Origin: a virus
Length of the DNA: 21,806 bases
IMG/VR virus record: IMGVR_UViG_3300005915_000135
Location: 1-21,806 of that record
Strand: one strand, 5' to 3'
The translations under genes and the position numbers were made by a program. The notes under the pieces were generated by a model. The model did not search any database and had not been told where the DNA came from. It saw only the letters and a program-made list of their open reading frames with translations. This document shows, piece by piece, positions 1 to 18,413 of the stretch (its first letter is position 1; every line of letters starts with the position of its first letter).

Positions 1-891
1 GCAGAAAATGATTCCTCTGACTTTTTTGCAATGACCCTTATTAAGGTCTTGGAGAATGGAAGATATCGCCTTGTTAACTGTTATGCTGTTGCTGGCGGCA
101 AGTTTAAAGACCATGCAGAATACCTGCGTTATATCCTATCCAACTTTAATGTTGTCTTTGTAATGATCGATAATGCTGGCGGCCCAACATTCTTACAGTT
201 TGTCAATCAGTATAAGTGGTTCAAGAGCAGACCTTTAGAAGCCATTCCAAGAGAAGAGGCAGATTTTTCCGATATCGTAGATTATCAAAGACAGTTGCAA
301 AAGGCGAAGGGTTTATATAATCGAGAAATAAATAAGATCGTCTATTTCCAACATTTTAACAGCGACTGGATTCGCCGTGCGAACGAATTGCTTCAAGGTA
401 ACATTGGGCACAAGCGTATCGTTTTTGCTTCCCCTGCACAAGGAATCGAAACAGAATACAAAAAGCAAAGAGACCAGACTAAAATCGACAATCTCAAAGA
501 CCTCAAATTTATTGGGTCGGTTGTAAACGATAAGAAGAATAAACTTGACGAGGCGGAAGAGATCAATAAAACCATCGATCAGTTAGATGAAGGCTTGTCT
601 CAGGACAAGAGACTTCAGGCAAAACAAATTGATTTATTAGAGCGGCAAGGATTCTTGCTTGAGCTAACAAAAACTCAATGTGCCTTAATTCAAATCAAGG
701 CATCTGACTCTGGCGTTCAAACCTTTACCCTTCCTCATCATTTGAAAAACCAAACTGGCCCAAATAAGACGCGACGAGATTTATACACGTCTCTTTTGAT
801 CGCAAATTGGGCAAGCAAATGTTATCACGACATGATAGCTGCGCCACAGGAAGAGGAATTTGATTTTATGCCTTCCGTAATTCGAGATTAA
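1..891 (+). CDS. Terminase large subunit, C-terminal nuclease part (5' end outside window)
   Basis: The reading frame is open from base 1, so the 296 visible residues are the C-terminal end of a larger protein; the ATG at 31 is internal and the ATPase domain is missing. TerL packages phage DNA: its ATPase domain drives translocation and its RNase H-like domain cuts concatemers. The visible part fits the nuclease domain. A beta hairpin ends in FVMIDNAGG (Asp57 of the visible part, bases 169-171), the usual second acidic site, and TRRDLYTSLLIANW near the end carries the third (Asp260). The first catalytic Asp would lie at or before the left edge. Between them is a charged helical stretch (about residues 150-215) ahead of the last strand. 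The position directly before a portal gene supports the call. Family confidence is good; the subfamily cannot be told. Confidence 0.85.
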   Translation, partial: AENDSSDFFAMTLIKVLENGRYRLVNCYAVAGGKFKDHAEYLRYILSNFNVVFVMIDNAGGPTFLQFVNQYKWFKSRPLEAIPREEADFSDIVDYQRQLQKAKGLYNREINKIVYFQHFNSDWIRRANELLQGNIGHKRIVFASPAQGIETEYKKQRDQTKIDNLKDLKFIGSVVNDKKNKLDEAEEINKTIDQLDEGLSQDKRLQAKQIDLLERQGFLLELTKTQCALIQIKASDSGVQTFTLPHHLKNQTGPNKTRRDLYTSLLIANWASKCYHDMIAAPQEEEFDFMPSVIRD

Positions 892-898
892 TGTGTAA
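873..898 (+). promoter_or_regulatory. Bipartite promoter-like element upstream of portal gene (imperfect copy)
   Basis: TTCCGT (873-878), 14 bases, then GTGTAA (893-898). The first half matches the consensus TTCCCA at four of six positions, and the second half and the spacing are exact. It spans the terL stop codon and lies 21 bases before the portal ATG at 920. It belongs to a set of elements with identical spacing in this window; the promoter function is inferred. Confidence 0.5.
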
Positions 899-919
899 AA
901 GTAAGAAAAAGTAACTTTC

Positions 920-3004
920 ATGCCAAAAAGACCTTATAAGAAAAAGAATCCAGACTATTGGAACAACCTCTCTCGAAAGAGCGTGGAGCCAGCCCCAGCT
1001 ATACTTAATACGAAGGAAGGCGTGCCTGTTGTGTTTGCAGAAAATGAGGAGTATAGTTGGGGGCCTGTTGGGGTTTCCGATGCGGCGACTTATAGCTCTG
1101 GTGCCCCATCTTCTGGTGGGAACAGTCGCAGGCGCAACTATACCTCGACAGAACAGCTTCTTCCCGAGTATGCCCAACTTTCAAGTCTCAAGATGCCTTG
1201 GGACTCAAGTAGTGGGAAGGTTTCTGCTGCTTCAGCAATTGAGCTTTGTGAAAAAACCTACGCCCACATTGCCGTATTCCGTAATACGATAGATATCATG
1301 ACGGAGTTTTCGTCTTCGAGCATTTATCTTACTGGCGGAAACAAGTCTTCCAGAACCTTTGTCGAGAACTGGTTAAGAAGAATCAAGGTTCAAAGACTTA
1401 CAGAACAGTTTTTTAGGGAGTATTTTCGATCTGGGAATGTTTTCCTTTACAGGTTTGATGGGAAGTTTTCCAAAGAGGATCTTCGTAAAATCCGAAGCGA
1501 GGCTGACAGCGGAAGGGTAAGCCTTGCTGCATCAAAGAGTAGGATCGCCTTAAGGTATGTGATCTTAGACCCTAAAAATGTTGTGGCGCTTTCGACTTCA
1601 AATTTTTCCCACTGCAAATACGTCAAAGTTCTTTCCCCGTATGAGATCGAGCAACTAAGAAACCCGAAGACAGAAGAAGATCAGGCGGTTTTCGACGCGC
1701 TTTCAGCAGATGCCAAGAAGAAAATTCGAGGACAGGGACTCACAGCCTCAGGGGTCGAAATAGAGCTTGATCCAAAGAGGCTCTGTTATGTTTTCTACAA
1801 AAAGCAACCTTACGAACCTTTCGCAATCCCATTTGGATTCCCCGTTTTAAAAGATATCGACAGGGTTGAAGCCTTGAAAAACATGGATCAAGCGATTAGT
1901 CGCACGGCTCAAAATGTTGTTCTCTTAATCACGATGGGAGAGAAGAAGCATGAATATGGTGGTGGGGTGAACCCCAAGGCAATGGCCAGCATACAAAACA
2001 TTTTTTCTAACGAGTCTGTGACGAGGGTTCTTGTTTCTGATTATACGACAAAAGCTCAGTTTGCTATTCCTGAAATTGGCAATATTCTCGACCCTAAAAA
2101 ATACGAAGTTTTAGAGCGCAGTATCAGATACGGCCTGCAAAACATTATCGTTGGGGAGGAAAGACTTGCGAATCAAATGATCAAGGTGAAGGTCTTCTTA
2201 GAAAGGCTCAGCGAAGGTCAAGAAGCATTCCTACAGGATTTCTTACAACCAGAGATCAGAAAAGTTTGCAAGGACATGGGATTCAGAAAGATCCCTACTG
2301 CACATTTCCAAGGATCAAGTCTTAAGGACGAGGTTCAGATGATGCGTATTTACACTCGCCTCGGTGAAATTGGATTCCTTACGCCAGAACAAGTGTTTAG
2401 GGCTATGGAGACGGGTATCCTCCCAGAGGACGCAGAGTTGGATGAAGCTCAAGACAAATATGTCAAGAGTCGCCGCAAGGCCCATTTCAATCCAGTTGGA
2501 AGCGGCACCCCAATGATTTCCTCCCCAACACCTCCTGACACGGGTAACGGGAACGGCAAGGAGAGCGGGAAACCAACCTCTCCAAACGATGGTCGCCCAG
2601 CGGGAAGCAGCGGAATACCGCAGACCACAAAGAAGGTTAGCCCTCAAGGAACATCAAGCGCGAAGGAAGGGAAATACGGAGTCAAGAAAATGGCAGATAC
2701 CGTTTGGGCAATTTCTCGCTTCTCTAGCGAGGCGGAAAAGGCAATCAAGCGGAAATACAAGATAAAAGAACTAACCGAACAGCAAGAAATCATGGCTGCA
2801 AGTTTGGTCGAGCGCGTAATTACTACTGCGAGCAAAGGGAAATGGAGCACAGAACTCAAGAAATATTTGGGAGATCCCGAACAACTTGCGTTCAACTTAA
2901 ATAGCCCTATCAGCAAAGCGGTAGAAGAAATCGCGCAAGAACACCAGACCGACTATTATACTGCGGCTTTATTGTATCATAGCAGGCATGGCAAGGACTC
3001 TTAA
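920..3004 (+). CDS. Portal protein
   Basis: A 694-residue portal protein, the dodecameric ring at the capsid vertex through which DNA passes and to which the terminase and connector dock. I recognise the general portal layout: an N-terminal helical region with aromatic and basic residues, a core containing a clip/stem-like segment (about residues 300-450, including PFAIPFGFPVLKDIDRVEAL and RYGLQNIIVGEERLANQ), and the position right after terL. The core seems to end near residue 515. It is followed by a low-complexity Gly/Ser/Pro/Thr linker (about 525-590) and a separate helical C-terminal segment (about 592-694), which is unusual for a portal. The start at 920 follows the promoter-like element by 21 bases, and its Shine-Dalgarno is weak. 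The 3' end overlaps the next gene by 17 bases, suggesting translational coupling. The portal call is firm; the role of the C-terminal addition is unknown. Confidence 0.88.
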   Translation: MPKRPYKKKNPDYWNNLSRKSVEPAPAILNTKEGVPVVFAENEEYSWGPVGVSDAATYSSGAPSSGGNSRRRNYTSTEQLLPEYAQLSSLKMPWDSSSGKVSAASAIELCEKTYAHIAVFRNTIDIMTEFSSSSIYLTGGNKSSRTFVENWLRRIKVQRLTEQFFREYFRSGNVFLYRFDGKFSKEDLRKIRSEADSGRVSLAASKSRIALRYVILDPKNVVALSTSNFSHCKYVKVLSPYEIEQLRNPKTEEDQAVFDALSADAKKKIRGQGLTASGVEIELDPKRLCYVFYKKQPYEPFAIPFGFPVLKDIDRVEALKNMDQAISRTAQNVVLLITMGEKKHEYGGGVNPKAMASIQNIFSNESVTRVLVSDYTTKAQFAIPEIGNILDPKKYEVLERSIRYGLQNIIVGEERLANQMIKVKVFLERLSEGQEAFLQDFLQPEIRKVCKDMGFRKIPTAHFQGSSLKDEVQMMRIYTRLGEIGFLTPEQVFRAMETGILPEDAELDEAQDKYVKSRRKAHFNPVGSGTPMISSPTPPDTGNGNGKESGKPTSPNDGRPAGSSGIPQTTKKVSPQGTSSAKEGKYGVKKMADTVWAISRFSSEAEKAIKRKYKIKELTEQQEIMAASLVERVITTASKGKWSTELKKYLGDPEQLAFNLNSPISKAVEEIAQEHQTDYYTAALLYHSRHGKDS

Positions 3005-5021
3005 ATATAACACCCACTCTATTTATTCTGGCCCCAATTGGACGGGACAGGAAAATTATAACAGTGGCGACATCTCGCAGTTTCAGCGCGTAACGGCGAG
3101 CAACTTCGACATAACCATAGAAAGAACCCGCTCTCCACAGCTAGGGTCTTTTTCTCAAGGGCACGCAATCATTGAAAGTCCGTTTATAAGCATGAACATG
3201 TCTTACCTTCCCACTGACGGGGAGAACGAACAGATCTTGGGCTTTATCGTCAATGGAACTGGCAACGCGTTCTCTGATCTTATTCAGCACGAATCCGACT
3301 TGTTCATAAGGACCAATGATGAGACTGTTTTGGCGGTCGGAAATTGCGCAATCTCCAACTATATTATAAATGCTGCTGTTGGCAACCCGATATCTTGCTC
3401 CGTTGGTTTCCGTGGATTCTCTATTACTGCTGGAGATGGGATTACTTCTAGTGGCGAGATCCCAAGGGTAGACACTCTTGGAAATTTTGTTGGGGGCAAA
3501 TTTATACTTCCTCCATTTGACACAAAATACAACTCCCGTGTCACGGGAGAGGCCCAAGATGTCGCGGCGTTACGCCCAAGCGATATGGAGATCACATGGG
3601 ACGACCTTTCAGGATTCTCTCTCAACAACGATATAAGCCAAGATTTTATACAATCCTTATCCCTTGGTTTTACGTTCGAACGCAAAGAAGTCAAAAGGCT
3701 GAGCGAGAAATATCCATTTTACCGAAACATCACGTATCCAGTTCGAGCAGAGCTTGGTGCGGAATTCATCTTAAGCAATCATGAAGCTGACACCCTCTCT
3801 AGGTTCATAACAAATAATACAGGCGCAATCACAGTAGACTTTAAATCTCCTTGCGGAGGGTGGTTTGATGAGAATTGGGAAGAGGTAAGCAAGAGCAAGT
3901 TCTCCTGTCGCTTGGAAAAGTTGCAGCTTATCAGTTCGTCAGATAGCCTTTCGATTGATAGTAGAAAAAGAATCTCTGTTAAGTGGGAAGCTTTTGCGAC
4001 GAATATAAACTATGATTCAAATGAAGTAATTTTTAATGGAAATCATGGTCCCGTTGATTGGATTCTTTCAAGCGTGGAAAGTGTCACTGGAGAAAATGGA
4101 ATTTCTGGCAGGGGAATTGCTCAAGTAGACGATCTTTCATACTTCTCACGATATCTCCCCCTCATCAGTTCTCAACCGCAAGAAATCTCATACACTGGAC
4201 TATACGACTATGCCTCTGGCAACAAGTCCATATTCTTGGATACAAAACCGACAAATTCCTTCTTTATAGGGCCAAAGGCGTTCCAAAGCGGGGATTTAAC
4301 GGAGTTATGGTTTAGCTGGGTGGACAGCGACATTGTTTATGCTAATCGCTACGATCTTTACGATCCAAACTCTGTTTCTGGGCATGAAATTTTAACATTG
4401 GATAGCACAGCAGACAATACCTCGCTCTGTTTTGATAGCAGCCTGAGCCCATTTGTCGCGGCTGAAAGAAATGGCAACGTGGAGATTTATGATAGCGCAG
4501 GAACGCTGACTGGAAGCTTTGTCGGGTCTTATCCTCAGATGTGGAACAATAGTGAAGCGTATTACGATACAGGCTCACAAAGCGTAGACATCGCTTGTTT
4601 CTACCTCTCTGGAAGTGACGTGTATGTGCGCTTGGACTCTGAGAGTTACTCAGAACCATACCTCGCTTACCAATTCAGTCAAACCCCACACTCTTTAAAA
4701 TGTGTTTATGCAAATCGACCTTACAGCGGATTTTATGACAAGGTCCACTTGTTCGGCTTGTATGAAGATGGAGATGGCTTTTCACTGAACCTTCAGCCAT
4801 GGAGCATTTACCAAGACTTTGAAGAGATGGGCAGCGGGGAGATTGTCGGGCAATTCAACGAAACCTTTGGCTGGCCGCAACTTTCCCTTGGCGCTTGGGG
4901 CATGGCCGCGTTGATAAATTCTTACGAATACTTTTCAAACGATGATTTTGAGAATTATGCGTCTGGATATACTGGCGTTTTAATTTCAGGAGAAGTTTTT
5001 TATACAGGAGAATATTTGTAA
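2988..5021 (+). CDS. Tail-tube-like protein with large beta-rich C-terminal extension
   Basis: A 677-residue protein in two parts. Residues 1 to about 342 are clearly related to the two tube-type proteins at 14005 and 15147. Shared anchors, compared with 15147, are IESPFISMNMSYLPTDGENE (LESPTVSLDFNYLLTDGTNE), SNYIINAAVGNPISCSV (SNYTAEAAVGGLPTASV), ALRPSDMEITW (ALQPGDVTLTL) and FERKEVKRLSEKYPFYRNIT (IAREPLQRLGSKFAFSREIT). The module occurs twice inside this part (about 39-74 and 221-258). Residues 343-677 have no counterpart in the paralogs. They are rich in Ser, Tyr, Asp and Gly and contain short strand-like repeats (for example DIVYANRYD, GNVEIYDSAG and SDVYVRLDS) reminiscent of a beta-propeller or receptor-binding fold. 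The gene starts inside portal and is joined to the next by a TAATG overlap. It is likely a virion protein: a specialised tube, tip or neck component is possible, but its location in the particle cannot be read from the sequence. Confidence 0.65.
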   Translation: MARTLKYNTHSIYSGPNWTGQENYNSGDISQFQRVTASNFDITIERTRSPQLGSFSQGHAIIESPFISMNMSYLPTDGENEQILGFIVNGTGNAFSDLIQHESDLFIRTNDETVLAVGNCAISNYIINAAVGNPISCSVGFRGFSITAGDGITSSGEIPRVDTLGNFVGGKFILPPFDTKYNSRVTGEAQDVAALRPSDMEITWDDLSGFSLNNDISQDFIQSLSLGFTFERKEVKRLSEKYPFYRNITYPVRAELGAEFILSNHEADTLSRFITNNTGAITVDFKSPCGGWFDENWEEVSKSKFSCRLEKLQLISSSDSLSIDSRKRISVKWEAFATNINYDSNEVIFNGNHGPVDWILSSVESVTGENGISGRGIAQVDDLSYFSRYLPLISSQPQEISYTGLYDYASGNKSIFLDTKPTNSFFIGPKAFQSGDLTELWFSWVDSDIVYANRYDLYDPNSVSGHEILTLDSTADNTSLCFDSSLSPFVAAERNGNVEIYDSAGTLTGSFVGSYPQMWNNSEAYYDTGSQSVDIACFYLSGSDVYVRLDSESYSEPYLAYQFSQTPHSLKCVYANRPYSGFYDKVHLFGLYEDGDGFSLNLQPWSIYQDFEEMGSGEIVGQFNETFGWPQLSLGAWGMAALINSYEYFSNDDFENYASGYTGVLISGEVFYTGEYL

Positions 5022-5773
5022 TGGCAGAGATTTATCATAAAGTTTATACGGGTGGAATAAAGAACACTCTTGTTTTAGATAGCAGGCAAGCCTTGTTATA
5101 CCCAATGGTTTTTGACGACTGGAACCAAATTGTGGTAGGTGCGTTCTTCTCCTTTACTGACAATAGCGAATTAAACCACAGTTGGGGATCAAGTGAAGTA
5201 ACCTATCAAAACACATTCTCGACAACAAGAGATATGTTTTATTTTGGGCTCAAAAACAACTCAAGCCAGTTCCCAAAGGTCAGTGGATCTAAATTCTTAG
5301 GAGCTCTTACAGTTGCGGGAGCAAGATGGTGGTCAGATGGGGACGGACTTCCAACTCACTTTGACATAACGGAAGATGCCTTGACAGACGTTTCGTATGG
5401 CAGCATAAACGACACAAGCATCTTGACATCGACAGAAGCTGAAATATGGACTCCATCTCAATCAGAAAACGCAGAAAGGTTTTCCCTCACGTCAAGCTTC
5501 GCACTAATAATTGCATTACGCTTTACCGTCAACGACAAGGGTCTTGCAACTCAAACGGTGAGCATTGATCGATATGCTACAACAAACAATACAGACACCT
5601 CTATTAACGCTCTTAAAGAATTGATTCAAGGCTCTGGTTACACAAGCGTTGCGACTGCAACATTTAATTCAGGAGACGCGGCTTTAACATTGCCAAATTC
5701 ACTTTTCATTCACTTCCCTTGGTCCCTTGTGCGGGGCCGATTGCATTCTGTAGCTGCAATGAAAGTCGAATAA
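5021..5773 (+). CDS. Unrecognised probable virion protein
   Basis: A 250-residue product that I do not recognise. It is rich in Ser, Thr, Asn and aromatic residues, without cysteine, signal peptide or membrane segment, and it looks like a beta-rich structural protein. Segments include a Trp-rich stretch near residue 105 (GARWWSDGDG) and a hydrophobic strand near 155-165. The start ATG at 5021 shares its A with the TAA stop of the upstream gene, and an AGGAG at 5006-5010 gives a 10-base spacing, so the start is well supported and translation is coupled to the tube-like fusion protein. Pairing with that gene suggests the two products act together in the virion, perhaps as partners or as fibre and chaperone, but nothing in the sequence proves this. 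A promoter-like element follows immediately. Confidence 0.6.
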   Translation: MAEIYHKVYTGGIKNTLVLDSRQALLYPMVFDDWNQIVVGAFFSFTDNSELNHSWGSSEVTYQNTFSTTRDMFYFGLKNNSSQFPKVSGSKFLGALTVAGARWWSDGDGLPTHFDITEDALTDVSYGSINDTSILTSTEAEIWTPSQSENAERFSLTSSFALIIALRFTVNDKGLATQTVSIDRYATTNNTDTSINALKELIQGSGYTSVATATFNSGDAALTLPNSLFIHFPWSLVRGRLHSVAAMKVE

Positions 5774-5777
5774 TAAT

Positions 5778-5803
5778 TTCCCATTTTAACTTCAAAAGTG
5801 TAA
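5778..5803 (+). promoter_or_regulatory. Bipartite promoter-like element, perfect copy, upstream of 5815 gene
   Basis: TTCCCA at 5778-5783, 14 bases, GTGTAA at 5798-5803. It lies wholly in the 41-base gap between two genes. The first 11 bases (TTCCCATTTTA) are identical to the copy at 15078. It ends only 11 bases before the ATG at 5815, so if it is a promoter the transcript would be leaderless or nearly so. Confidence 0.6.
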
Positions 5804-5814
5804 GATAAAACAAT

Positions 5815-6315
5815 ATGGAACAAAAACTCTCATTTATCAACGAAACTGTTGCCAACGAATTTGCGACGGCTCTTAAAGAAGAGCGAAAAATTGAATCTAA
5901 AATAGACAAAGAAGATAAAAAGTTCGTGGTATCTTTCTCTCTCGCGAAACGTTTTGCTGAATGCAAAGGACACTGCGGAGAAGGGGAGGCGACGACAGAA
6001 GATGATAGACATGTAACCATGGACGATCTTAATTCTTTTGTTTCGTTTATCTTGTCTGAGATGCAATGGCAGCTAAACTGGCTCTCGTCAGACGTTTCCT
6101 ATCTTTCAAGCTCTCTTTACAGGCACACAGAAAGCGGTCACCTTCCTCCTATCAAGGGCGCGGGTAAAATGGCAGATGCTTTGAAAACCCTCGGAATCGA
6201 CGATGACTACGATGTTCGAAAGCCAGAAATTCGTGCGAGCACTCGCTCCTACGCTTCTCTAGGTGGAAACCGACCTACGGTAGAAGTAGATCTTATCCCA
6301 TCTAAAGAAAACTAA
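5815..6315 (+). CDS. Unrecognised 166-residue protein upstream of prohead protease
   Basis: The product is not recognised. The N-terminal 60 residues are highly charged and probably helical, followed by a short Cys/His cluster (CKGHCGEGE, about 51-59), a Trp-containing helical section (about 70-105) and a C-terminal tail with PPIKGAGKMADALKTLGIDDD. The cysteines could bind metal but are too few for a standard zinc finger. The gene has no convincing Shine-Dalgarno. The ATG is the only plausible early start and lies 11 bases after a perfect promoter-like element. It is separated from the protease gene by two bases, so the two are probably co-translated. Position between portal and protease suggests a head-assembly or minor capsid role, which is only an inference. 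Confidence 0.6.
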   Translation: MEQKLSFINETVANEFATALKEERKIESKIDKEDKKFVVSFSLAKRFAECKGHCGEGEATTEDDRHVTMDDLNSFVSFILSEMQWQLNWLSSDVSYLSSSLYRHTESGHLPPIKGAGKMADALKTLGIDDDYDVRKPEIRASTRSYASLGGNRPTVEVDLIPSKEN

Positions 6316-6317
6316 AA

Positions 6318-8216
6318 ATGCCAAAAGAATTTAAATACAAGACTGTTTTCAACAAACAGGCCATTGTTACTGCGACCCACAATCCAAAAGTGAGCCGCCG
6401 TTTTGCGCAGGCAAATTTGAAGAACCTTCAAAATCTAGACCTTCCAAGCGAGGTAAGACTGGAGGATAATGTTGATCTTATCGCAGCTGTATATAACGCA
6501 GCGGTGATCAATCGCCTCAATCGAAACGACGATGGCATCGCAAGGGAAACCGCAATAGCAATCCAACCCCTCTTTCTACACAAGCCACAAAACATAGACC
6601 ACAAAAGAAGTCGTGTTATTGGACATGTTGTTAAAGCTGGTTGGAGTAGCTTCGGTGAAAACAAGATTCTCTCAGACGACGATATCAAAAACATAGAAGA
6701 TCCGTTCAACCTTGTTCTTGGCGGTGTTATATATAGATTGGTGGATGAGAAATTCGCAGATCTTATAATTGATGCAGCAGACGAAGAGAGTGATCACTTT
6801 AGAGAGGTTTCTGCAAGTTGGGAACTTGGGTTTGATGACTACCATATTGTTGTTGGTGATAGGGATGTAAAAAATGCCGAGATTATCACAGACCCAAAAC
6901 ATATCAATGAGCTTTCCAAATACCTTCGTGCGAACGGGGGATCTGGTAAAACTTCAGAAAACGAATATATAGGAAGACTTATCGTTGGGGGTGTTGGAGA
7001 AGTCCTGCCCTTAGGAATTGGATTTACAAATCAACCCGCCGCAGAAGTAGAAGGCGTTGAGGTCAAGGACTGGACAGATTTTTTAACTGACGAAGAACTA
7101 GAGGAAGAAGTTATGGGAGAAGATTTGGCAGATACAATTAAACGAGCAGTAATAGAAGTTCTTAAAGAGCAGAAAAGAAATGGTGGTCTTTTAGATGATA
7201 AAACGACTGAAATCAATACGACTGTCAATGTTGCTGACATTAATACGGATGTAGAGCTTAGCCCAAGGGCGGAAGAGATTAAAAAGTCGCTCAAAGAAAT
7301 AAATGAAATTCTTAATGCCAGCAAAGCCTCAACAGGGGAAACCATTGACAAGCTTCTTAAGATTGACAAAGATTTTTCAGCATCTGCAAGAAATCTTGCC
7401 GACAGTATGAGGCAAGTCGTTGATAATGAAAAAGATTCCAATTTAACGAAAAACGAAAAAAATAATTCCCAAAACAGAAAAACAACTGTAAACGATATTA
7501 ACCATAAGGAAACCATAATGGCCAAAGACAAAATTAAAACAAATAAAGATCTCTTAGCTCTCATTCCAGAAGAATCCAGAGCCAGCGCTGCTGATTTTAT
7601 TGCAGAGGAAATTGAACGAAAGAGCGAAGAGTATAAAGCGCAAGTCGAAGAAAAAGACATTGCCCTTAAGGACGCCTCAGCTAGTATCGATACGTTAACA
7701 GAAAAGTTAGATACGACCCAAGAGTCTATCAAAACTATTGTTAATAAGATGAAGATCGTTGAAGACGAATCTGCTGCAAAGGAGAACGCAAGATTGTTCC
7801 AAGAAAGAATGAGTGGGCTCGACGAAGAATTTAAACTTTCAGAAGCTGATAGGAAAGTTATTAGTGCAAGCATTCGCGGAATGGACGAAGACTCCTTCCA
7901 GAAATGGCACGAAGAATTTGCTACTATCGCATCTGACAAAAGCAAAACAACCATTAAAGAAAAGGACGACGAACTTCAATCTAAGATTGATGAAGCCGTT
8001 GCAGCTTTAAAGGATGACAAAGGGGAGGCAGAAAAAAAGGAAGAAAAGACCGAGAAGAAAACCGAGTCAAAAGCTTCCGAAGATGTCCCTGAGGTTCTCG
8101 ATAATATGAAAGAAGAAAAAGGCCAAGAAATTGCCAATGCCACATCCGAGAAGAAGGAAGACATGGTTAGTGAGTGGGCTGAAGCTTTTAAAGGTTCATT
8201 CGGGGACGAAGAATAA
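6318..8216 (+). CDS. Prohead maturation protease fused to scaffold
   Basis: A 632-residue protein combining a capsid maturation protease and an internal scaffold. Residues about 60-245 look like the phage prohead serine protease fold: the His region is IDHKRSRVIGHVVKAGW (candidate catalytic His95) and the Ser region is FREVSASWELGF (candidate Ser165), which resembles the conserved Ser motif of these proteases. The domain closes near GIGFTNQPA (about 234-242). From about residue 255 on the protein is Glu/Lys-rich and strongly coiled-coil, as scaffolds are; it includes a low-complexity Lys/Glu tract near 570-590. Such fusions are known in tailed phages, where the protease cuts the scaffold and leaves the head before DNA enters. 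An internal ATG at 7518 with its own signals probably yields free scaffold. The start at 6318 lies two bases after the upstream stop. The protease assignment rests on motif context; catalytic residues are proposed, not proven. Confidence 0.8.
   Translation: MPKEFKYKTVFNKQAIVTATHNPKVSRRFAQANLKNLQNLDLPSEVRLEDNVDLIAAVYNAAVINRLNRNDDGIARETAIAIQPLFLHKPQNIDHKRSRVIGHVVKAGWSSFGENKILSDDDIKNIEDPFNLVLGGVIYRLVDEKFADLIIDAADEESDHFREVSASWELGFDDYHIVVGDRDVKNAEIITDPKHINELSKYLRANGGSGKTSENEYIGRLIVGGVGEVLPLGIGFTNQPAAEVEGVEVKDWTDFLTDEELEEEVMGEDLADTIKRAVIEVLKEQKRNGGLLDDKTTEINTTVNVADINTDVELSPRAEEIKKSLKEINEILNASKASTGETIDKLLKIDKDFSASARNLADSMRQVVDNEKDSNLTKNEKNNSQNRKTTVNDINHKETIMAKDKIKTNKDLLALIPEESRASAADFIAEEIERKSEEYKAQVEEKDIALKDASASIDTLTEKLDTTQESIKTIVNKMKIVEDESAAKENARLFQERMSGLDEEFKLSEADRKVISASIRGMDEDSFQKWHEEFATIASDKSKTTIKEKDDELQSKIDEAVAALKDDKGEAEKKEEKTEKKTESKASEDVPEVLDNMKEEKGQEIANATSEKKEDMVSEWAEAFKGSFGDEE
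7466..7491 (+). promoter_or_regulatory. Bipartite promoter-like element inside protease/scaffold gene
   Basis: TTCCCA at 7466-7471, 14 bases, then CTGTAA at 7486-7491: one mismatch from the consensus, exact spacing. It lies in the coding sequence, in an Asn/Lys-rich linker, and 26 bases before the in-frame ATG at 7518. It could transcribe scaffold, decoration and capsid genes at higher level than protease. Confidence 0.5.
7506..7510 (+). promoter_or_regulatory. Internal Shine-Dalgarno for the scaffold start
   Basis: AAGGA lies seven bases before the in-frame ATG at 7518, an ideal spacing, inside the protease/scaffold reading frame. Together with the element at 7466 it supports initiation there. 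Confidence 0.6.
7518..8216 (+). CDS. Scaffold protein from internal in-frame start (nested gene)
   Basis: This is the in-frame 232-residue C-terminal part (residues 401-632) of the protease/scaffold protein, proposed as a separate product. It begins MAKDKIKTNKDLLALIPEES, is almost entirely helical and charged, and lacks the protease domain. Evidence for a separate start is an AAGGA seven bases upstream, a low-complexity Asn/Lys linker just before it, and a near-perfect promoter-like element 26 bases upstream. The arrangement parallels the lambda C/Nu3 pair, in which the scaffold is made from an internal start in the protease gene. Scaffold is needed in many copies and protease in few, so separate expression makes sense. 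It is not proven that both products exist. Confidence 0.6.
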   Translation: MAKDKIKTNKDLLALIPEESRASAADFIAEEIERKSEEYKAQVEEKDIALKDASASIDTLTEKLDTTQESIKTIVNKMKIVEDESAAKENARLFQERMSGLDEEFKLSEADRKVISASIRGMDEDSFQKWHEEFATIASDKSKTTIKEKDDELQSKIDEAVAALKDDKGEAEKKEEKTEKKTESKASEDVPEVLDNMKEEKGQEIANATSEKKEDMVSEWAEAFKGSFGDEE

Positions 8217-8239
8217 TTTTAATCAGGAGTTAAAAAAAT

Positions 8240-8905
8240 ATGTTAAAAACAATCGATAGACTACTTCCATTTAGACAAGTTTCTGAGCAGGATACCGTGA
8301 ATCAGTTCTCTTTGGATGGAACTGGTGTGATGGGTATTTTTGTTTCAGTTTCAGCGGGAAATCTTGATTTCCAGCATTTTTGGGCCGACGAAAGTCCAGG
8401 CGCTGCCTATGATCGCACATACTCGTTTCGCTATGAAACGAAAACCAAAGTAAGAGCTTGCACAAGTGGCGATACAAGAGCTAACGTTCTTGGCCTTACC
8501 ATTTTCAATGTTGCTGAATACGATGAAAACGGTGAGAAATATCTCTACTACCCACAGAAGGCAAAGGAAAATTCCGTTGTCTTGTCAGGGCAGGCAGTTC
8601 CTATTGGAACTCGCGGTATCTACACCATTACTTCAAACGCTTATGATAACGACCCAACTGGCGGAGCGGGAACAAACCTCCCTCAAGTCGGTGACTTGGT
8701 CGTTCCCTCTAACACCAATGACGGTAAGGTTTACTTTGCCGCAGCATCTGAAATTGGCCCAGACAAATATTACGACTCATCTGTAACGGGATTTGTTGAC
8801 AATGTAACATCTAACCAAGCATATTTCAACGAACAGGTTCTTGGAAAATGCATCGGAACAGGATCAAAGTTTAGCGGTTACGCTATGATCGAGCTTTGGG
8901 ACTAA
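8240..8905 (+). CDS. Probable head decoration / capsid-associated protein
   Basis: A 221-residue protein, Gly/Asn/Tyr-rich and probably beta-rich, with no membrane segment or signal. The gene sits between scaffold and major capsid protein, where many tailed phages carry their head decoration or stabilisation protein. No diagnostic motif was recognised, so the call is positional. The start is well defined: AGGAG at 8225-8229, ten bases before ATG, in a short intergenic gap. A second AGGAG precedes the capsid gene 22 bases further on, so this gene, capsid and nested scaffold appear to form one transcription unit that ends at the hairpin near 10137. It is larger than lambda gpD-like proteins (about 110 residues), so another capsid-associated role is possible. 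Confidence 0.5.
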   Translation: MLKTIDRLLPFRQVSEQDTVNQFSLDGTGVMGIFVSVSAGNLDFQHFWADESPGAAYDRTYSFRYETKTKVRACTSGDTRANVLGLTIFNVAEYDENGEKYLYYPQKAKENSVVLSGQAVPIGTRGIYTITSNAYDNDPTGGAGTNLPQVGDLVVPSNTNDGKVYFAAASEIGPDKYYDSSVTGFVDNVTSNQAYFNEQVLGKCIGTGSKFSGYAMIELWD

Positions 8906-8927
8906 CTTACAGGAGAAACAATAGATA

Positions 8928-10106
8928 ATGAATATTACGATCAAAAGAACGAAGAAAAATGTTGATCTCTTGGCGAAGCTCGCTTCAAGCAATCGTCTTG
9001 TTGCAATGCAGGCCCACGAATCGTTGGCGCAGTTTATCGGTGAAGTTCTTCAGAAAGTCATCAATAACGCACCTACGCTCTCAAATCTTTTCACACCGTT
9101 GCCATTTCGCGAGAACGACAATCCGTCGATCCCTCTCGATTTATACCGCGACGTGCTAGAGGAAGATTATTTGAGGGTGTGGTCCCAAGTTGAACCAGGT
9201 GGCATGCCTTACAACTTGCCAACACCTCCACAAAGCGAATTGAAGTTCACGACCTATCCTTTGGATAGTGCATGGGCTTTCCACAAAAAGTTCGCTCGTG
9301 ATTCCCGCCTCGATGTTGTCGCTAAGACCTTCGAAAGAATCACTCAGGAGGTTATGCTTAAGCAAGAGCGCAACTCTGCCGCATTAATTTTGCGTGCAAC
9401 TGCCCAAGCTTTAAGCCCAATCAAGCAGAACACGCAGAATGTCCGTCAGGTTATTCGCACAAATACTGCAAACCAACTCGTGCTTGATGATTTTGTTCGT
9501 CTTTTCACGTTGCACAAAAGAATTCGTCCAGCTTGGAATGGCGGAACGCCAAACGTTCGCCAGTCTCGTGGCTTGACTGATATGTTGATTTCCCCAGAAA
9601 TCACAGAAGAATTCCGTCGCATGGCTTACAATCCTCTTAACACTCGCGCTGGACCTACTAGCGCCACGGGAACCCCTGCTGGTTCTACGGTCGGTATCCC
9701 TTTGACCGAGTCTCAAAGAGAGAGCATCTTCAATAATGCTGGTATTCCTGAATTTTACGGTGTAGCAATGCACGAAATTCAAGAACTCGGTATCGGCTAC
9801 AAGTATAATGACTTGTTCGATTACTGGGCAGGATCAATTGAATACCCTGATCACGGTGAGGCATACGACTCAACAACGACTAGCACGTTCACTGCTGCTT
9901 CAGAAGAAATTATGCTCGGCTTGGACCTTTCCGAAAACGGAAACTTTGTTCGTCCAGTTGTTATCGATAAGGACACCAACGCAGAATTTACCGTCGAGCC
10001 CGACGATCAATTCACGCGTCGTTCTGGTAAAATCGGTTTCTACGGTTCGCTCGAAGAAGGTCGTCTTATTTTGGATGACAAAGGCTTATCAGGTTTGATC
10101 GTCTGA
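8928..10106 (+). CDS. Major capsid protein
   Basis: A 392-residue protein, which I call the major capsid protein from position (after scaffold and decoration), size and composition typical of an HK97-fold shell protein. The N-terminal 40 residues are basic and helical and could include a cleaved segment. The rest has a long helix-like stretch (about 135-165, FERITQEVMLKQERNSAALILRA region), a Gly/Thr/Pro-rich loop (about 235-260), and a late segment IPEFYGVAMHEIQELGIGY that resembles the P-domain strand region of capsid proteins. Codon use looks optimised, and base composition is GC-richer than in the endonuclease gene that follows. An AGGAG at 8911-8915 lies 12 bases before the ATG, slightly long. 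A strong hairpin terminator follows within 31 bases, as expected for a heavily expressed gene. Which residues are removed by the protease cannot be told. Confidence 0.83.
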   Translation: MNITIKRTKKNVDLLAKLASSNRLVAMQAHESLAQFIGEVLQKVINNAPTLSNLFTPLPFRENDNPSIPLDLYRDVLEEDYLRVWSQVEPGGMPYNLPTPPQSELKFTTYPLDSAWAFHKKFARDSRLDVVAKTFERITQEVMLKQERNSAALILRATAQALSPIKQNTQNVRQVIRTNTANQLVLDDFVRLFTLHKRIRPAWNGGTPNVRQSRGLTDMLISPEITEEFRRMAYNPLNTRAGPTSATGTPAGSTVGIPLTESQRESIFNNAGIPEFYGVAMHEIQELGIGYKYNDLFDYWAGSIEYPDHGEAYDSTTTSTFTAASEEIMLGLDLSENGNFVRPVVIDKDTNAEFTVEPDDQFTRRSGKIGFYGSLEEGRLILDDKGLSGLIV

Positions 10107-10136
10107 TACCCTCACAACCAACAACTTACGAAAGCG

Positions 10137-10165
10137 CCTCAGTCTAACCCTGAGGCCCTTTCTTG
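10137..10165 (+). terminator. Rho-independent terminator after capsid gene
   Basis: GCCTCAG (10137-10143) pairs perfectly with CTGAGGC (10151-10157) across a seven-base loop, followed by CCTTTCTT. The T tract is interrupted but the stem is GC-rich. It separates the capsid unit from the endonuclease gene. Confidence 0.75.
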
Positions 10166-10198
10166 ACCTGACAACACAAGCAACTAAAAGCATTTATA

Positions 10199-11059
10199 AT
10201 GTATAGAAATTGGACAACAGAAGAAGACAATATTATAAGACTCAAAAAAAGAGAAAATGAAATCTGGTCAGACTTTGTTAAGCGAGAAATGTCATACCGT
10301 AGTGTAAACTCTGTAAGGCTGCATGCTATAAGATGCCTTAATATCCACAATCATAATGCGATTTATAGGAAATACCACTTTGATGAAAGCGTATTTTCCA
10401 AATTAACTTCTGAAAGCTGTTATTGGGCTGGATTTATCGCGGCAGATGGCTGTATTGTAGATGCGGGTGGTTGGAAAACGCTATCAATAGAGCTTAGCCA
10501 AGTAGACGTCGAACACTTAAGAAAGTTTAAGGAATTTGTAAATTTTTCTGGACCCATTCGCCTTTTCAAAAGAAGGGAGGGCTGGGAGCACTGTGGGATG
10601 AGAATAACAAAAACTGATAGCCGCTTGTTTTCCGACTTAAAAAACAATTTCTCTATTACCCCTAGAAAAACGCGAACGCTTCAACCGCCAAAAATAAATG
10701 ATGATTACCTTAAGTTTTGTTTTGTCGTAGGGTTTTTAGATGGGGACGGAACCGTATGCCTGAATCAAAGAAGAAAAACCCTTTCTATTAATATTGTTTG
10801 CGCAAGTCATGACTTTTTGTCTTGGCTTAAGTCAATTGTTGACCCTATTGTTCAGCCCTACAAATTAAGGAATGTAAAAAGGAACGTGGTAAGGCATGGA
10901 ACGGATTATTGGCAATATGGTATTTCAGGCGTCGGAGCTTGTGCCCTCTGTGAGAAAGTTCGATCTTCCAAGCTTCCAGTTTTACCTCGAAAATGGTATA
11001 GAAAAGAACTTGGCAACTTTATCAAAGATACCATTCCCAAAATTCAGATTCCCGTGTAA
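10199..11059 (+). CDS. LAGLIDADG homing endonuclease with N-terminal Myb/SANT-like domain
   Basis: A 286-residue site-specific DNA endonuclease of the LAGLIDADG family. Two motif copies are visible, YWAGFIAADG (75-84) and FVVGFLDGDG (175-184). They are 100 residues apart, as in single-chain pseudo-dimeric enzymes, and the acidic residues Asp83 and Asp183 are in place. The first 50 residues (NWTTEEDNIIRL ... RSVNSVRLHAIRCL) resemble a Myb/SANT DNA-binding helix bundle. No interrupted gene flanks it: the capsid gene and the next gene both look intact, so it is a free-standing mobile gene. It lies between the capsid terminator and the next promoter-like element, and its last codons include that element, the final TAA of GTGTAA being its stop. 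It has no clear Shine-Dalgarno, and its 5' part is visibly AT-richer than the capsid gene. Homing spreads such genes into related phages; the cleavage site is unknown. Confidence 0.9.
   Translation: MYRNWTTEEDNIIRLKKRENEIWSDFVKREMSYRSVNSVRLHAIRCLNIHNHNAIYRKYHFDESVFSKLTSESCYWAGFIAADGCIVDAGGWKTLSIELSQVDVEHLRKFKEFVNFSGPIRLFKRREGWEHCGMRITKTDSRLFSDLKNNFSITPRKTRTLQPPKINDDYLKFCFVVGFLDGDGTVCLNQRRKTLSINIVCASHDFLSWLKSIVDPIVQPYKLRNVKRNVVRHGTDYWQYGISGVGACALCEKVRSSKLPVLPRKWYRKELGNFIKDTIPKIQIPV
11034..11059 (+). promoter_or_regulatory. Bipartite promoter-like element, perfect copy, at 3' end of endonuclease gene
   Basis: TTCCCA at 11034-11039, 14 bases, GTGTAA at 11054-11059. It is encoded by the last codons of the endonuclease gene and its TAA is the stop codon. 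The next gene starts 31 bases downstream with a good AAGGA, so the element probably drives the connector genes. Confidence 0.6.
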
Positions 11060-11090
11060 GAGAGTTTGAAAACCAAATCAAAGGAATAAG

Positions 11091-11528
11091 ATGACAAAAC
11101 AATTAGAAACAGGTGAAAAGGTTGCCGCAAAGAGAACCGTGGCAAGAGAAAAAGTGGTTAAGAAAACTAACGTTGTAAGTGGAATGCTTCCCTCTCCAGA
11201 CCCAATGGCCGCTGTGGTAACGCTTGACGATATCCTCGGAACAAGATCTTCAGCCTCTCCATGGAAAGTAAAGAATTTGGAAGACCTCGAAACTCAAATG
11301 GCAGAAATGAACCTTGTAGACTTACAAAGACTTGCGACAAGAGTCGGGCTACTTCCCGTTTCTGATAGGCGCGTTTTAAAAGGTCGCCTTTCTCGCGAAT
11401 ACAGAGTTCAAGCAAGAAAAAATACGCAAATTGACATGAGCAATTGGGTAGACCCAGATGATTCGATTCAAAATGCGTCTGAAGAGCAGACGAAAAGAGT
11501 TCGAAGAATTCTTAGAGAGGGATCATAA
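11091..11528 (+). CDS. Small head-proximal protein with SAP-like segment
   Basis: A 145-residue basic protein of unknown role. The first 30 residues are Lys/Arg-rich and probably disordered, and residues 31-65 are Pro/Ser-rich. Residues about 73-104 (MNLVDLQRLATRV, then GL, then RRVLKGRLSREY) look like a helix-extended-helix, in the pattern of SAP or Rho N-terminal-type modules that bind nucleic acid; this resemblance is suggestive only. The gene follows a perfect promoter-like element and has AAGGA five bases before its ATG. It ends three bases before the next gene, so it is the first gene of the connector unit. A small DNA-contacting head-completion protein would fit the place. No catalytic motif is visible. 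Confidence 0.55.
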   Translation: MTKQLETGEKVAAKRTVAREKVVKKTNVVSGMLPSPDPMAAVVTLDDILGTRSSASPWKVKNLEDLETQMAEMNLVDLQRLATRVGLLPVSDRRVLKGRLSREYRVQARKNTQIDMSNWVDPDDSIQNASEEQTKRVRRILREGS

Positions 11529-11531
11529 GCC

Positions 11532-11996
11532 ATGTCTAGTATTGGCGATTTTGCTTCTGGCGTATGGGTAGACTTGGGTAGCCCTTCAAACGTCTCCATT
11601 GTTTCAATCAGTGGTTGGTCGGAGGTTAATATTGGCGGTCTAAACATCAAAATAGATACCTCCTTCTCCATTTCTGGCGATGACTTCTCTCCATCATTTG
11701 GAACGACGGAAAGTTCTATCTATGAACAGATGTATAAGATCCAGTATTTTGAGCAAAGAACGTATGAGGCAATCAATGGGATTTTTGACGAGAGCACAAT
11801 GGACTGGTCAAACTTGTCAGAGGGAGACAGCAAGATAACAAGAACCAATCGCGGTGAGCTTTTGAAACTATATCGAGGGATGCAAAGAGATGCTCAATTA
11901 GAGCTTGATAAATGCGTCGGGTATTACAAAAGTAACCTCTCAAATCCAATTCAAGTTGCGGGCGATGACGCTCCATCTTCTCCTGTCCTTAACTAA
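11532..11996 (+). CDS. Probable head-tail connector/adaptor protein
   Basis: A 154-residue protein with a short beta-rich N-terminal part (GDFASGVWVDLGSPSNVSI) and a helical C-terminal half (about 68-140; EQMYKIQYFEQRTYEAINGI and RGELLKLYRGMQRDAQLEL). Helical bundles of this size immediately after the capsid region are typical of head-tail adaptor proteins that bind the portal, so I give that role by position and shape; I did not recognise a defining motif. The start at 11532 is three bases after the previous stop. GAGGG at 11517-11521 gives a ten-base spacing. It is followed closely by 11998, and the whole run from 11091 to 13954 is tightly packed, consistent with one transcription unit. Confidence 0.5.
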   Translation: MSSIGDFASGVWVDLGSPSNVSIVSISGWSEVNIGGLNIKIDTSFSISGDDFSPSFGTTESSIYEQMYKIQYFEQRTYEAINGIFDESTMDWSNLSEGDSKITRTNRGELLKLYRGMQRDAQLELDKCVGYYKSNLSNPIQVAGDDAPSSPVLN

Positions 11997-11997
11997 A

Positions 11998-12450
11998 ATG
12001 GTAAGTTTAATCTCAGACGCCAACAAAGCGAGTATAGACGATGCCTTTAATTCCATCCACGACACGTTTAGACGGCCCATAAAAGCCTTTAAAGATGGAA
12101 AGAGGGTTATTGTATCATCTAACCCGAACTACAACCATATTTACGGAAATCGGCCAAAGACCAGCAACGTAAGATATGAGGAATCAGAGCGTTTGATTTA
12201 TGCCCGTATTTTCTATTTTGCAGGGGAGAAACCAAAGACTCCCCTTGACGCAACAAAAGGCGACGATCTAAAACTCAGCATAGATTCTGGCGAGGTTCGC
12301 TTGAAGATGTCTAATGAGGATTTCAATTGGTTGGGAAATGTGAACAGGATAGAATTTGACAGCAAAATATTTCAAGTCATCTCAGACGAGATCCCACATG
12401 GAATGTTCACCTCCAGTTATAAAATGTTGATATTGAGGAGCCTTGATTAA
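11998..12450 (+). CDS. Probable head closure / connector protein
   Basis: A 150-residue protein. The open frame extends upstream to an ATG at 11905, but that would overlap the previous gene by 92 bases. The ATG at 11998, one base after the TAA of the previous gene, is the better start and I use it. There is a helical N-terminus followed by beta-rich sequence (KRVIVSSNPNYNHIYG and repeated short strands to the end). The size and location after the adaptor candidate fit a head-closure/stopper protein. No Shine-Dalgarno is evident, so it probably relies on coupling to the upstream gene. It overlaps the next gene by one base (TAATG). The role is inferred from synteny, not from motif. Confidence 0.5.
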   Translation: MVSLISDANKASIDDAFNSIHDTFRRPIKAFKDGKRVIVSSNPNYNHIYGNRPKTSNVRYEESERLIYARIFYFAGEKPKTPLDATKGDDLKLSIDSGEVRLKMSNEDFNWLGNVNRIEFDSKIFQVISDEIPHGMFTSSYKMLILRSLD

Positions 12451-13097
12451 TGAAGGTCAATACCAAAGAGGTAAGGTTGCAATTTGCGAAACAGTTCTGG
12501 AATACAACCACTGGAAAGCACTTTGCCTTGGGTCAAGCTCGACAAAAATCCAACGTTGCAAAACGCTTTATGATTAGAGAGTTTCAAAATGATCCAGTTA
12601 CCAAAGAGTTACAAGGTGGCAAAACTGCGCCGCACGAATCTGGATTGATCAGCTATGGTGGCCCACGCGGCGAAAGGGAGAATGTAAATCTTTACACGTT
12701 TTTTGGCTTCCCATCTGGAGACCCAACCCGAAACTTGGACGCTCTTTTAAATAGACACATTCCTATTACTTCAGTTGGCCCTCCTATTAACTTGAGATAT
12801 ACGTTCAAAATGGGCGTTCCAACAGAGTTGGAAATCGAAGATGTCACTAAGCTCGCCCAATGGGGTGTTGGAAATGCATCGTGGGCAAAAATGCTGGAGG
12901 ATGGATCTTTAAATGAGAATGTTCGGCATTACGCCGTCCTGTTTGACCTTGATCCAAGACTTGCAAGAAAATACAGTAGGACTGGAGTTGCGCTGCAACT
13001 AAAGAATAAGGTGTTGCCGAACTCAATCGAAGCTTACCCATACATCAGCAAAATCTTAGACATGTTTAAAAATACAATTGGAAGGCTGTTTTCATAA
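12450..13097 (+). CDS. Probable neck / tail-completion protein
   Basis: A 215-residue basic protein. The N-terminus is charged and helical (MKVNTKEVRLQFAKQFWNTT) and the middle has FQNDPVTKELQGGKTA and Gly/Pro-rich sequence. The place in the unit, between the head-closure candidate and the proteins just before the tail tube, matches the neck or tail-completion position of siphophages (HK97 gp10-type). I did not find a decisive motif. The start is clear: GAGGAG at 12435-12440, nine bases before ATG, and a TAATG overlap with the previous stop. The same overlap type links it to 13097, so these genes are translated as a coupled series. Confidence 0.5.
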   Translation: MKVNTKEVRLQFAKQFWNTTTGKHFALGQARQKSNVAKRFMIREFQNDPVTKELQGGKTAPHESGLISYGGPRGERENVNLYTFFGFPSGDPTRNLDALLNRHIPITSVGPPINLRYTFKMGVPTELEIEDVTKLAQWGVGNASWAKMLEDGSLNENVRHYAVLFDLDPRLARKYSRTGVALQLKNKVLPNSIEAYPYISKILDMFKNTIGRLFS

Positions 13098-13954
13098 TGC
13101 AAGACCAATACGTAAACAAGGTCGTCTCTAGCTTCTATCTTTGGCTTGACCATACGATTTTGTCAGATGGAGAGGGTTACGAAAACGCTTCCTCGAACCT
13201 GTATTATAACGAAGATTCCCAGCTTGGTGGAAAAATCCCATATTCATCCCCCTTCAAACAGTGGGGAGCAGATTCCAGCGTTACAAGCATAAACATCCCA
13301 AGTGGCGTTTATGTGAGCGGGGAATTTATAGCAAGGGGTGTCTCTGGATTGGAAATCGATTACGACAATGGCCGCGTGTTATTCGACGAAAGCGTTGGAT
13401 CGGGCTTGTCAGATCTCAGTGGAGATTTTGCTTACAAGGATTTTAACGTCTATGTTGTCGAAGATTTTGAAGAAGAGATCTTGTTTGAAAAGCGATACAT
13501 AGAAAATAGCCGCTTTGATCAGGACATAGTTTCAGGCGTAGAGCCCTACTCCTATGCAATGCCCGCATGCTTTATCTCTTCCATCGAATTAGAGAATAAA
13601 CCTTGGGCTCTTGGTGGAACAGACGAATCTAAAACTAAAATCCGAGTCATTCTTGTAACAGACGATGGGTTTAATATGGATGCTTGTGTGTCCTTATTCA
13701 TGAATAAAGCTCATAAGCATATTAAAATTTTCGATGATATTGGAGTCACCCCATTTAACGAATACGGGGATCTCAAATCTTCTCTTAGTGGGGATTACAA
13801 CTATTTAAATACCATCGATGAGAACTCTGGGCATTTGGCTTATGTAGAGCGTGTCTTTGCTTCAAAAATTGGGGGAACGCAAGAAAAAAGAAATTCTAAC
13901 ATGTCGATGGCATATGCAGATTTTTATTTGAGCGACCCAAGGATTCCCAATTAA
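13097..13954 (+). CDS. Probable tail terminator / neck virion protein
   Basis: A 285-residue acidic protein. The N-terminal helix (VNKVVSSFYLWLDHTIL) is followed by a beta-rich region with IPSGVYVSGEFIARGVSGLE and DYDNGRVLFDES, a pattern I associate with large-phage virion proteins. The C-terminal part contains KIRVILVTDDGFNMDACVSL and ends FYLSDPRIPN. Location directly before the first tail tube gene is where a tail terminator sits in siphophages, so I suggest that role with modest confidence. The start has GAAGG at 13081-13085 and a TAATG overlap with the upstream stop. The last codons overlap a promoter-like element that continues into the intergenic region. Confidence 0.5.
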   Translation: MQDQYVNKVVSSFYLWLDHTILSDGEGYENASSNLYYNEDSQLGGKIPYSSPFKQWGADSSVTSINIPSGVYVSGEFIARGVSGLEIDYDNGRVLFDESVGSGLSDLSGDFAYKDFNVYVVEDFEEEILFEKRYIENSRFDQDIVSGVEPYSYAMPACFISSIELENKPWALGGTDESKTKIRVILVTDDGFNMDACVSLFMNKAHKHIKIFDDIGVTPFNEYGDLKSSLSGDYNYLNTIDENSGHLAYVERVFASKIGGTQEKRNSNMSMAYADFYLSDPRIPN

Positions 13955-13969
13955 ATGAAAAGAGTGTAA
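13944..13969 (+). promoter_or_regulatory. Bipartite promoter-like element, perfect copy, before first tail tube gene
   Basis: TTCCCA at 13944-13949, 14 bases, GTGTAA at 13964-13969. It spans the stop codon of the upstream gene and ends 35 bases before the ATG at 14005, leaving room for a leader with AAGGA at 13992-13996. Confidence 0.6.
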
Positions 13970-14004
13970 CCTAATTAGAATTCAATAGGATAAGGAAATA
14001 AATT

Positions 14005-15066
14005 ATGGCCGTCTTTTACCAATCAGAATCAGTGGCTTTAAAGCCAACTGGAGACACAAATAGTCAAACAACCCTACCAACTTTACAGTCCGTCGGCGTA
14101 AACTTTAGTGCCCAACGAAACAACGTGCAAAGACTTGGTAAGTTTTCGGTGATGCCATACCGATCAGCAAATCAATGGCCAACAGTAAACTTTCAAAGCG
14201 AATACATTCCAACTGGTTATGACGTAGAACAAGCGCTTGGTTTGATGGGAACTGGAGCAATGGAAACAGGAACTTCCGCTGGACCATCAAGCACCTCGAT
14301 TGTTGACGCCCTCACTATCTCAAGCCAGTATTCATGGAGCGATATTGATGTAGCCATAAGAGAAATGGTATTAGAAGGAACGGAAAGCGCTTTCTCTACT
14401 CTTTCTATTTCTGAAGGTGTTCTCACAAATTACAGCTTTCAAGCTTCTGTAGGGCAGGCTCCAAAGGTTTCTTTCTCTATGGAAGGATTAGACGCAGGGG
14501 TTTCAACTTCATCCTTCTCAGTAGACACCCCAAGTGACTTAAGTCCAACCTTGCGCCCGCAAGATATGCAGCTTTATTTGCCAACAGGATTATTTGGTAT
14601 TGCTGACAACGGGGTCCACGTTCAAAGCGTTAACATTGGTATTCCTCTCGGTCGCACGCCACTCATTAGACTTGGAGAGCAGAAGGCATTCTCTAGGGAG
14701 TTGCAGTCTCCCGTAATTGTGACCGCGCAGATTAGCGCAATAATGTCTGGTTTCAAGGCAACCTCTTCAACAACAGGCTCTGATGAAATGACCCAGCTTG
14801 TTGCGGGAAAATTTATTGATGATGACTTTGTCGTTAGGGTTTGGCAACCAGTCGAAACGGGAAGTTCAACAACTCAAATGATTAATTTTGTTTTGAGAAA
14901 ACCTTACTTAGAAAACATTGGCTGGTCAAACTCTGTAGGCGGGTATACGGCTGTAGACTTACAGTTTTCTATTCCATGCGCTCCTGTTGATGATGGGTTT
15001 GGTCAAACAGATGGAGAGAGTAATGTTATAATTAGTGGAAATCTTGATACTAGCATTGTAATTTAA
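14005..15066 (+). CDS. Tail tube-type protein 1 (internally duplicated)
   Basis: A 353-residue protein placed just before a paralog and upstream of the tail chaperone and tape measure genes, which is the tail tube position. It is Ser/Thr/Gly-rich and beta-rich, without cysteine clusters or membrane segments. Two halves repeat a module: residues 31-67 (VNFSAQRNNVQRLGKF with later PTVNFQSEYIP) and 207-245 (VQSVNIGIPLGRTPLIRLG with later PVIVTAQISA). Both have Arg-x4-RLG then a Pro-x-V strand. Anchors shared with 15147 include SNYTAEAAVG/TNYSFQASVG and ALQPGDV/TLRPQDM. A duplicated tube domain is known from T5 pb6, where trimers give pseudo-hexameric rings. AAGGA at 13992-13996 gives a good start. 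Which of the two adjacent genes is the main tube is unknown. Confidence 0.7.
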   Translation: MAVFYQSESVALKPTGDTNSQTTLPTLQSVGVNFSAQRNNVQRLGKFSVMPYRSANQWPTVNFQSEYIPTGYDVEQALGLMGTGAMETGTSAGPSSTSIVDALTISSQYSWSDIDVAIREMVLEGTESAFSTLSISEGVLTNYSFQASVGQAPKVSFSMEGLDAGVSTSSFSVDTPSDLSPTLRPQDMQLYLPTGLFGIADNGVHVQSVNIGIPLGRTPLIRLGEQKAFSRELQSPVIVTAQISAIMSGFKATSSTTGSDEMTQLVAGKFIDDDFVVRVWQPVETGSSTTQMINFVLRKPYLENIGWSNSVGGYTAVDLQFSIPCAPVDDGFGQTDGESNVIISGNLDTSIVI

Positions 15067-15077
15067 CTCGTTATCAA

Positions 15078-15103
15078 TTCCCATTTTACATAAAGCTGTG
15101 TAA
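15078..15103 (+). promoter_or_regulatory. Bipartite promoter-like element, perfect copy, before second tail tube gene
   Basis: TTCCCA at 15078-15083, 14 bases, GTGTAA at 15098-15103. It lies entirely in the 80-base gap between the two tube genes and shares TTCCCATTTTA with the copy at 5778, and it ends 43 bases before the ATG. Confidence 0.6.
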
Positions 15104-15146
15104 AAAGAAATAACTCAAACTTTGAATTTTAAAGAAATAGTAAATT

Positions 15147-16270: not shown

Positions 16271-16292
16271 TTTAAGGTTGAGCGATAAATTT

Positions 16293-18403: not shown

Positions 18404-18413
18404 TAAAAAAATG

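Follow-up and report, generated by a model that had tools for sequence, protein, structure and literature searches.

A two-part DNA element, TTCCCA-N14-GTGTAA, recurs ahead of structural genes in a viral contig and in its relatives, and probably it is a middle/late promoter to which a phage-encoded, ECF-like sigma factor directs host RNA polymerase. That factor is most likely the protein here called SigA. The stretch of DNA analyzed (the window) is a 21.8-kb viral contig fragment, all genes of which lie on the + strand, and family-wide questions were answered on related contigs. The window begins with the end of a terminase large-subunit gene (31-891, +), the product of which is 49% identical to part of the terminase of G001, a 205-kb relative. 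There follow a portal gene (920-3004, +; PHROG 2739), a putative protease-scaffold gene named from gene order (6318-8216, +), a putative major capsid gene (8928-10106, +; assigned from gene order and a weak PHROG match of a relative, E 0.011), and genes for tail-type proteins and then a tape-measure-like protein (from 18453, +). A LAGLIDADG homing endonuclease gene (10199-11059, +) lies between the putative capsid gene and the fourth copy of the element, and G001 has no gene at that place. The window genes at 2988-5021 and 5021-5773 are related to several adjacent G001 genes (14084-19901), a pattern that duplication of a structural-type gene pair could have produced.

Seven copies of the element were found in the window, all on the + strand. 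The preliminary description had listed six, each of which was recovered where it had been placed: exact copies at 5778..5803 (element 2, 11 nt before the ATG at 5815), 11034..11059 (element 4, 31 nt before the ATG at 11091), 13944..13969 (element 5, 35 nt before the ATG at 14005), and 15078..15103 (element 6, 43 nt before the ATG at 15147); a one-mismatch copy, TTCCCA-N14-CTGTAA, at 7466..7491 (element 3); and a two-mismatch copy, TTCCGT-N14-GTGTAA, at 873..898 (element 1, 21 nt before the portal ATG at 920). The list missed a seventh copy at 18394..18419 (element 7), which lacks TTCCCA and has GTGTAA at 18414-18419, 33 nt before the tape-measure-like ATG at 18453. Placement shortly before genes, also claimed earlier, held except that element 3 sits inside the putative protease-scaffold open reading frame, 26 nt before an in-frame ATG at 7518. 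Element 4 overlaps the end of the homing endonuclease open reading frame, the stop codon of which is the TAA of GTGTAA.

When up to two mismatches to TTCCCA-N14-GTGTAA were allowed, the window gave nine matches against a shuffle mean of 1.5, and none of 100 shuffles reached nine. Because of that mean, three of the nine (at 2350 and 6799 on the − strand and at 2522 on the + strand) are regarded as chance-level matches. Prediction across genomes is a stronger and independent test compared with counting mismatches. A position weight matrix trained on 19 gene-proximal GTGTAA sites from G001 only returned the six sites already noted plus 18394 as its seven best matches in the window, all on the + strand, with 13944 ranked first and 873 second; the eighth match scored 8.8 bits and was on the − strand. 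Orthologous sites in G001 were located for element 2 (19902, before the homologous gene), element 4 (23937), element 5 (26810), and element 6 (27822), and the ortholog of element 7 is a GTGTAA at 31208, before the gene for a 2,877-aa homologue of the tape-measure-like protein.

To judge from sequence, the bipartite signal is common to dozens of related viruses. One viral-contig scan yielded 121 stretches encoding putative capsid relatives, 80 of which were kept and sorted by capsid identity into clades I (the window and G001, whose putative capsid proteins are 60% identical), II (~50%), and III (~43%), a working label and not a tree. GTGTAA upstream of genes was observed 23 times against 3.8 expected in clade I, 137 against 11.6 in clade II, and 28 against 1.7 in clade III. 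In an unsupervised count of hexamers upstream of called genes, GTGTAA led in clades II and III, and in clade I it came second, outranked only by host-type TTGACT; GTGTAA was the top or near-top enriched hexamer in most family contigs. Moreover, GTGTAA was present within 90 nt upstream of 73 of 87 portal relatives. The structural module of G001 contains eight GTGTAA sites and no host-type promoters, versus 11 and 15, respectively, in the rest of the genome (Fisher p 0.0045). The earlier proposal of a late-gene promoter thus stands for structural genes and is too narrow as worded; in the relatives G002 and G003 the element also precedes nucleotide-metabolism genes, e.g., ribonucleotide reductase, and because these are nonstructural we call the class middle/late. 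The motif did not turn up in literature searches.

The two halves are not equally conserved. The preliminary description had paired TTCCCA with GTGTAA, and both halves were confirmed, but GTGTAA, or strictly TGTAA, is the better conserved. Alignment of clade I sites on GTGTAA placed TTCC(C) at −20 to −16. TTCC lay at exactly −20 in 14 of 25 gene-proximal clade I sites, once across 26 other offsets, and at −20 in 1 of 58 sites far from genes; at least four matches to TTCCCA were found in 15 of 25 near sites versus 5 of 58 far sites (Fisher p 2e-6). The upstream half has shrunk in clade II to TTC or NTCAC, with TTC at −20 in 11 of 45 sites, and part of it there coincides with coding sequence or with a repeat specific to the portal; it was not seen in gene-proximal sites of clade III. 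The upstream half is the weaker of the two, and TTCCCA is the form it takes in clade I. A short palindromic repeat, AAAGTNACTTT, occurs at about 906-917 in the window and in one to three copies around the pre-portal GTGTAA of many relatives, and it may be the operator of another regulator.

The geometry of the element is compatible with a sigma-dependent promoter in which TTCCC(A) would be the −35 half and TGTAA, usually within GTGTAA, the −10 half. It had been objected that a 14-base spacing does not fit sigma-70 hexamers and that the last half is a poor −10. Neither objection held: once the halves are aligned to sigma-70 hexamers, the N14 that precedes GTGTAA becomes a 15-bp spacer ahead of TGTAAN, and TGTAAN would stand in the place of TATAAT. 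GTGTAA precedes start codons by as little as 7 nt and by as much as more than 60 nt, with a mode of 8 to 11 nt in clade II. No distance fell below 7 nt, which argues that GTGTAA itself occupies the −10 position, and a 7-nt floor is as expected for the −10 element of near-leaderless mRNAs. Transcription would start about 7 to 8 nt downstream of GTGTAA, and the resulting mRNAs for the portal, post-capsid, tail, and tape-measure genes would be leaderless or carry short leaders. In clades II and III, Shine-Dalgarno motifs occur at close to background frequency. Of 19 host-type promoters in G001 (TTGAC-N16/17-TANNNT), 10 are exactly 6 nt upstream of the ATG, and leaderless transcripts therefore seem usual in these phages. 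Early-type genes of G001 (L089-L095) have TTGACT-N16/17-TANNNT exactly 6 nt before the ATG, suggesting that early mRNAs of G001 are leaderless. Most middle and late transcripts of Thermus phage phiYS40 likewise have no leader (PMC3594737), a likeness that is predicted here from spacing only.

Sites of the element head transcription units, and in many relatives the site that follows the putative capsid gene lies directly 3′ of a terminator-like hairpin. The window has a possible terminator hairpin at 10136..10156 (+), 3′ of the putative capsid gene and upstream of element 4 with the homing endonuclease gene between, and many relatives have a terminator-like hairpin at the matching position; the total from a terminator-hairpin scan of the window was not above chance. 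Hexamers enriched in clade II, CCGAAAGG, were suspected of being a second promoter and proved to be terminator-like hairpins.

Element 3 is of a different kind in that it lies within coding sequence. Across 42 distinct protease-scaffold genes, the element holds its place and spacing (T-TC ... T-GTA). The third base is invariant in 4 of 490 well-occupied codon columns, one being a tryptophan and the other three falling within the element, and the codon preceding GTA specifies five amino acids across these genes, each time with T as the last base (NNT). Such third-base invariance indicates that selection acts on the DNA and not on the protein alone. Most clade II relatives have an in-frame ATG about 20 nt after the element; in the window the distance is 26 nt, and a scaffold-like product could start at that ATG (7518). 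We predict that the internal copy drives separate expression of this C-terminal product (7518..8216, +; in the same frame as the 6318-8216 open reading frame), the function of which is assigned from gene order. Phage AR9 is known to have internal late promoters (PMC5312081).

The preliminary description had suggested looking for phage sigma factor or RNA polymerase genes, and two sigma-70-family proteins, SigA and SigB, were found conserved in the family. The window, as a 21.8-kb fragment, does not reach the sigma locus and has no sigma gene. SigA (224 to 246 aa) is encoded upstream of TerL in 39 of 39 contigs covering that place. Its sequence-level Pfam match is marginal, with Sigma70_r2 over the cut-off in five of nine records and a weak match to Sigma70_r4_2. 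An AlphaFold (AF2) model of SigA has two confident helical domains (pTM 0.42), the Foldseek matches listed for it are sigma factors, the best being Mycobacterium tuberculosis SigH at a modest E of 2.5e-3, and it matches SigH, SigL, SigW, and RpoE along its full length. The model is thus consistent with an ECF factor, having sigma2 and sigma4 without sigma3, at modest E-values; between the two domains is an insert with conserved cysteines. SigB is about 200 to 240 aa, sigma32 is among the sigma factors matched by its model (E 1.2e-4), and SigB relatives were found in every large contig examined, clade III included. SigA is favored as the reader because of its location upstream of terminase. No multisubunit RNA polymerase was detected by PF00562 or PF00623 in four large contigs, with 14 of 14 control genomes positive, and the polymerase that accompanies phiKZ/AR9-type promoters is accordingly not indicated in those four contigs. 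The two sigma factors, this negative result, and the placement of the element at the heads of transcription units support the earlier suggestion of a phage-specific or alternative-sigma promoter.

Several further searches placed the phages themselves. The putative capsid protein, SigA, and SigB had no match in INPHARED. A host search gave three contigs from metagenome-assembled genomes (two Flavobacteria and one Halobacteriovorax), which are too weak for a host call. G001 has 48 predicted tRNA genes (L093:16400-19541, L094:141-19101), two of them of uncertain identity (one tRNA-??? and one called Pyl, anticodon cta).

Known phage systems resemble the proposed one in part. The T4 late promoter, TATAAATA, has no −35 half and is read by host polymerase with gp55 as the phage sigma factor. 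The present element resembles it in having TGTAAATA-like variants and, as proposed, in pairing a phage sigma factor with host polymerase, but differs in having an upstream half, and SigA and SigB have no homology to gp55 detectable by hhalign (probability 0.1 percent and 4.6 percent, respectively). Middle and late promoter motifs of SPO1 differ from the present element. SPO1 is alike in having two phage sigma factors, gp28 and gp34, which serve successive gene classes (PMC9429907). Promoters of bacterial ECF sigma factors, such as M. tuberculosis SigH, share the bipartite −35/−10 layout, and the SigA model shares their domains, but the −35 of the element is not GGAAC, and SigA has its cysteine insert and marginal Pfam match. 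The phage sigma promoters of phiEco32 and 7-11 (TAATGTATA; TGTGATGTTATA), for which the phiEco32 sigma is gp36 (PMC4331800), are similar in having few, well-conserved copies before structural genes, a TGTA core, and early genes under host-type promoters, but the motifs in that report have no separate upstream half. BLAST with the concatenated phiEco32 motif, an uninformative query, gave no match. In hhalign, neither SigA nor SigB matched gp36 significantly, and SigA weakly matched PHROG 1740, which holds gp36 (E 0.0017); any kinship of gp36 to SigA or SigB would be distant. We infer for the element a mode of action like that of sigma-dependent late promoters in phiEco32 or SPO1, with a −35/−10 pair that is its own and new.

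The same promoter class might instead be read by SigB, or by SigA and SigB in succession, middle genes by one and late genes by the other. SigB relatives are present throughout the large contigs examined, the SigB model matches sigma factors with better E-values than does that of SigA, and a single non-host promoter motif was recovered for two sigma factors. SigA, however, and not SigB, is encoded beside the packaging and structural genes, and in G012-G014, which encode SigB with no SigA detected, GTGTAA-N7-13-ATG showed little excess (11 versus 5 for the reversed pattern), a weak comparison, because these contigs are fragmentary and yielded no structural genes. We consider reading by SigB, alone or in succession, unlikely, at a fraction of the weight that we give to SigA.

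Chance, an activator site, a substitute for the Shine-Dalgarno sequence, and a single-subunit polymerase promoter were also considered and rejected. Fixed spacing would equally suit the operator of a phage activator, as in the activator-type middle promoters that T4 MotA serves, and the element might then be such an operator, or an anti-termination or processing site, with host sigma-70 holoenzyme initiating. Sigma-70-like sites in the window are, however, at chance level (30 versus 30.9), and the 7- to 8-nt floor to the ATG places GTGTAA itself at −10, so that we regard this explanation as very improbable. Less credible still is an RNA-level translation signal. In clades II and III, where Shine-Dalgarno motifs hardly exceed background, the element does lie near start codons, but its distances range too widely, only some genes have it, its upstream half keeps a fixed DNA spacing, and one copy is within coding sequence, 20 to 26 nt before an ATG. 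Exact repeated promoters are typical of single-subunit RNA polymerases, and a phage enzyme of that type is an equally slight prospect; the degenerate −35/−10 pattern looks sigma-like, and PF00940 had no match in the four large contigs, although that profile was equally silent in control genomes and absence is not thereby shown.

A promoter read by a phage ECF-like sigma factor, probably SigA, would fit a broader picture, which we hold tentatively and at slightly less than even weight as a whole. Widespread uncultivated large tailed phages may use a two-class program with largely leaderless mRNAs. Early genes would have host sigma-70 promoters with the −10 element 6 nt before the ATG; the new class would have the bipartite TTCCCA-N15-TGTAAN and be served by an ECF-like phage sigma factor that contains cysteines and lacks a close relative in sequenced phages; and a promoter kept inside the protease-scaffold gene would make the scaffold separately. 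The element within that gene is a case of a promoter-like element under DNA-level selection within coding sequence. For a large phage family known here from metagenomes alone, the result is an expression map in which a promoter class is matched to a candidate sigma factor. Leaderless expression of its genes becomes directly testable through the start-codon spacings of the early and late classes.
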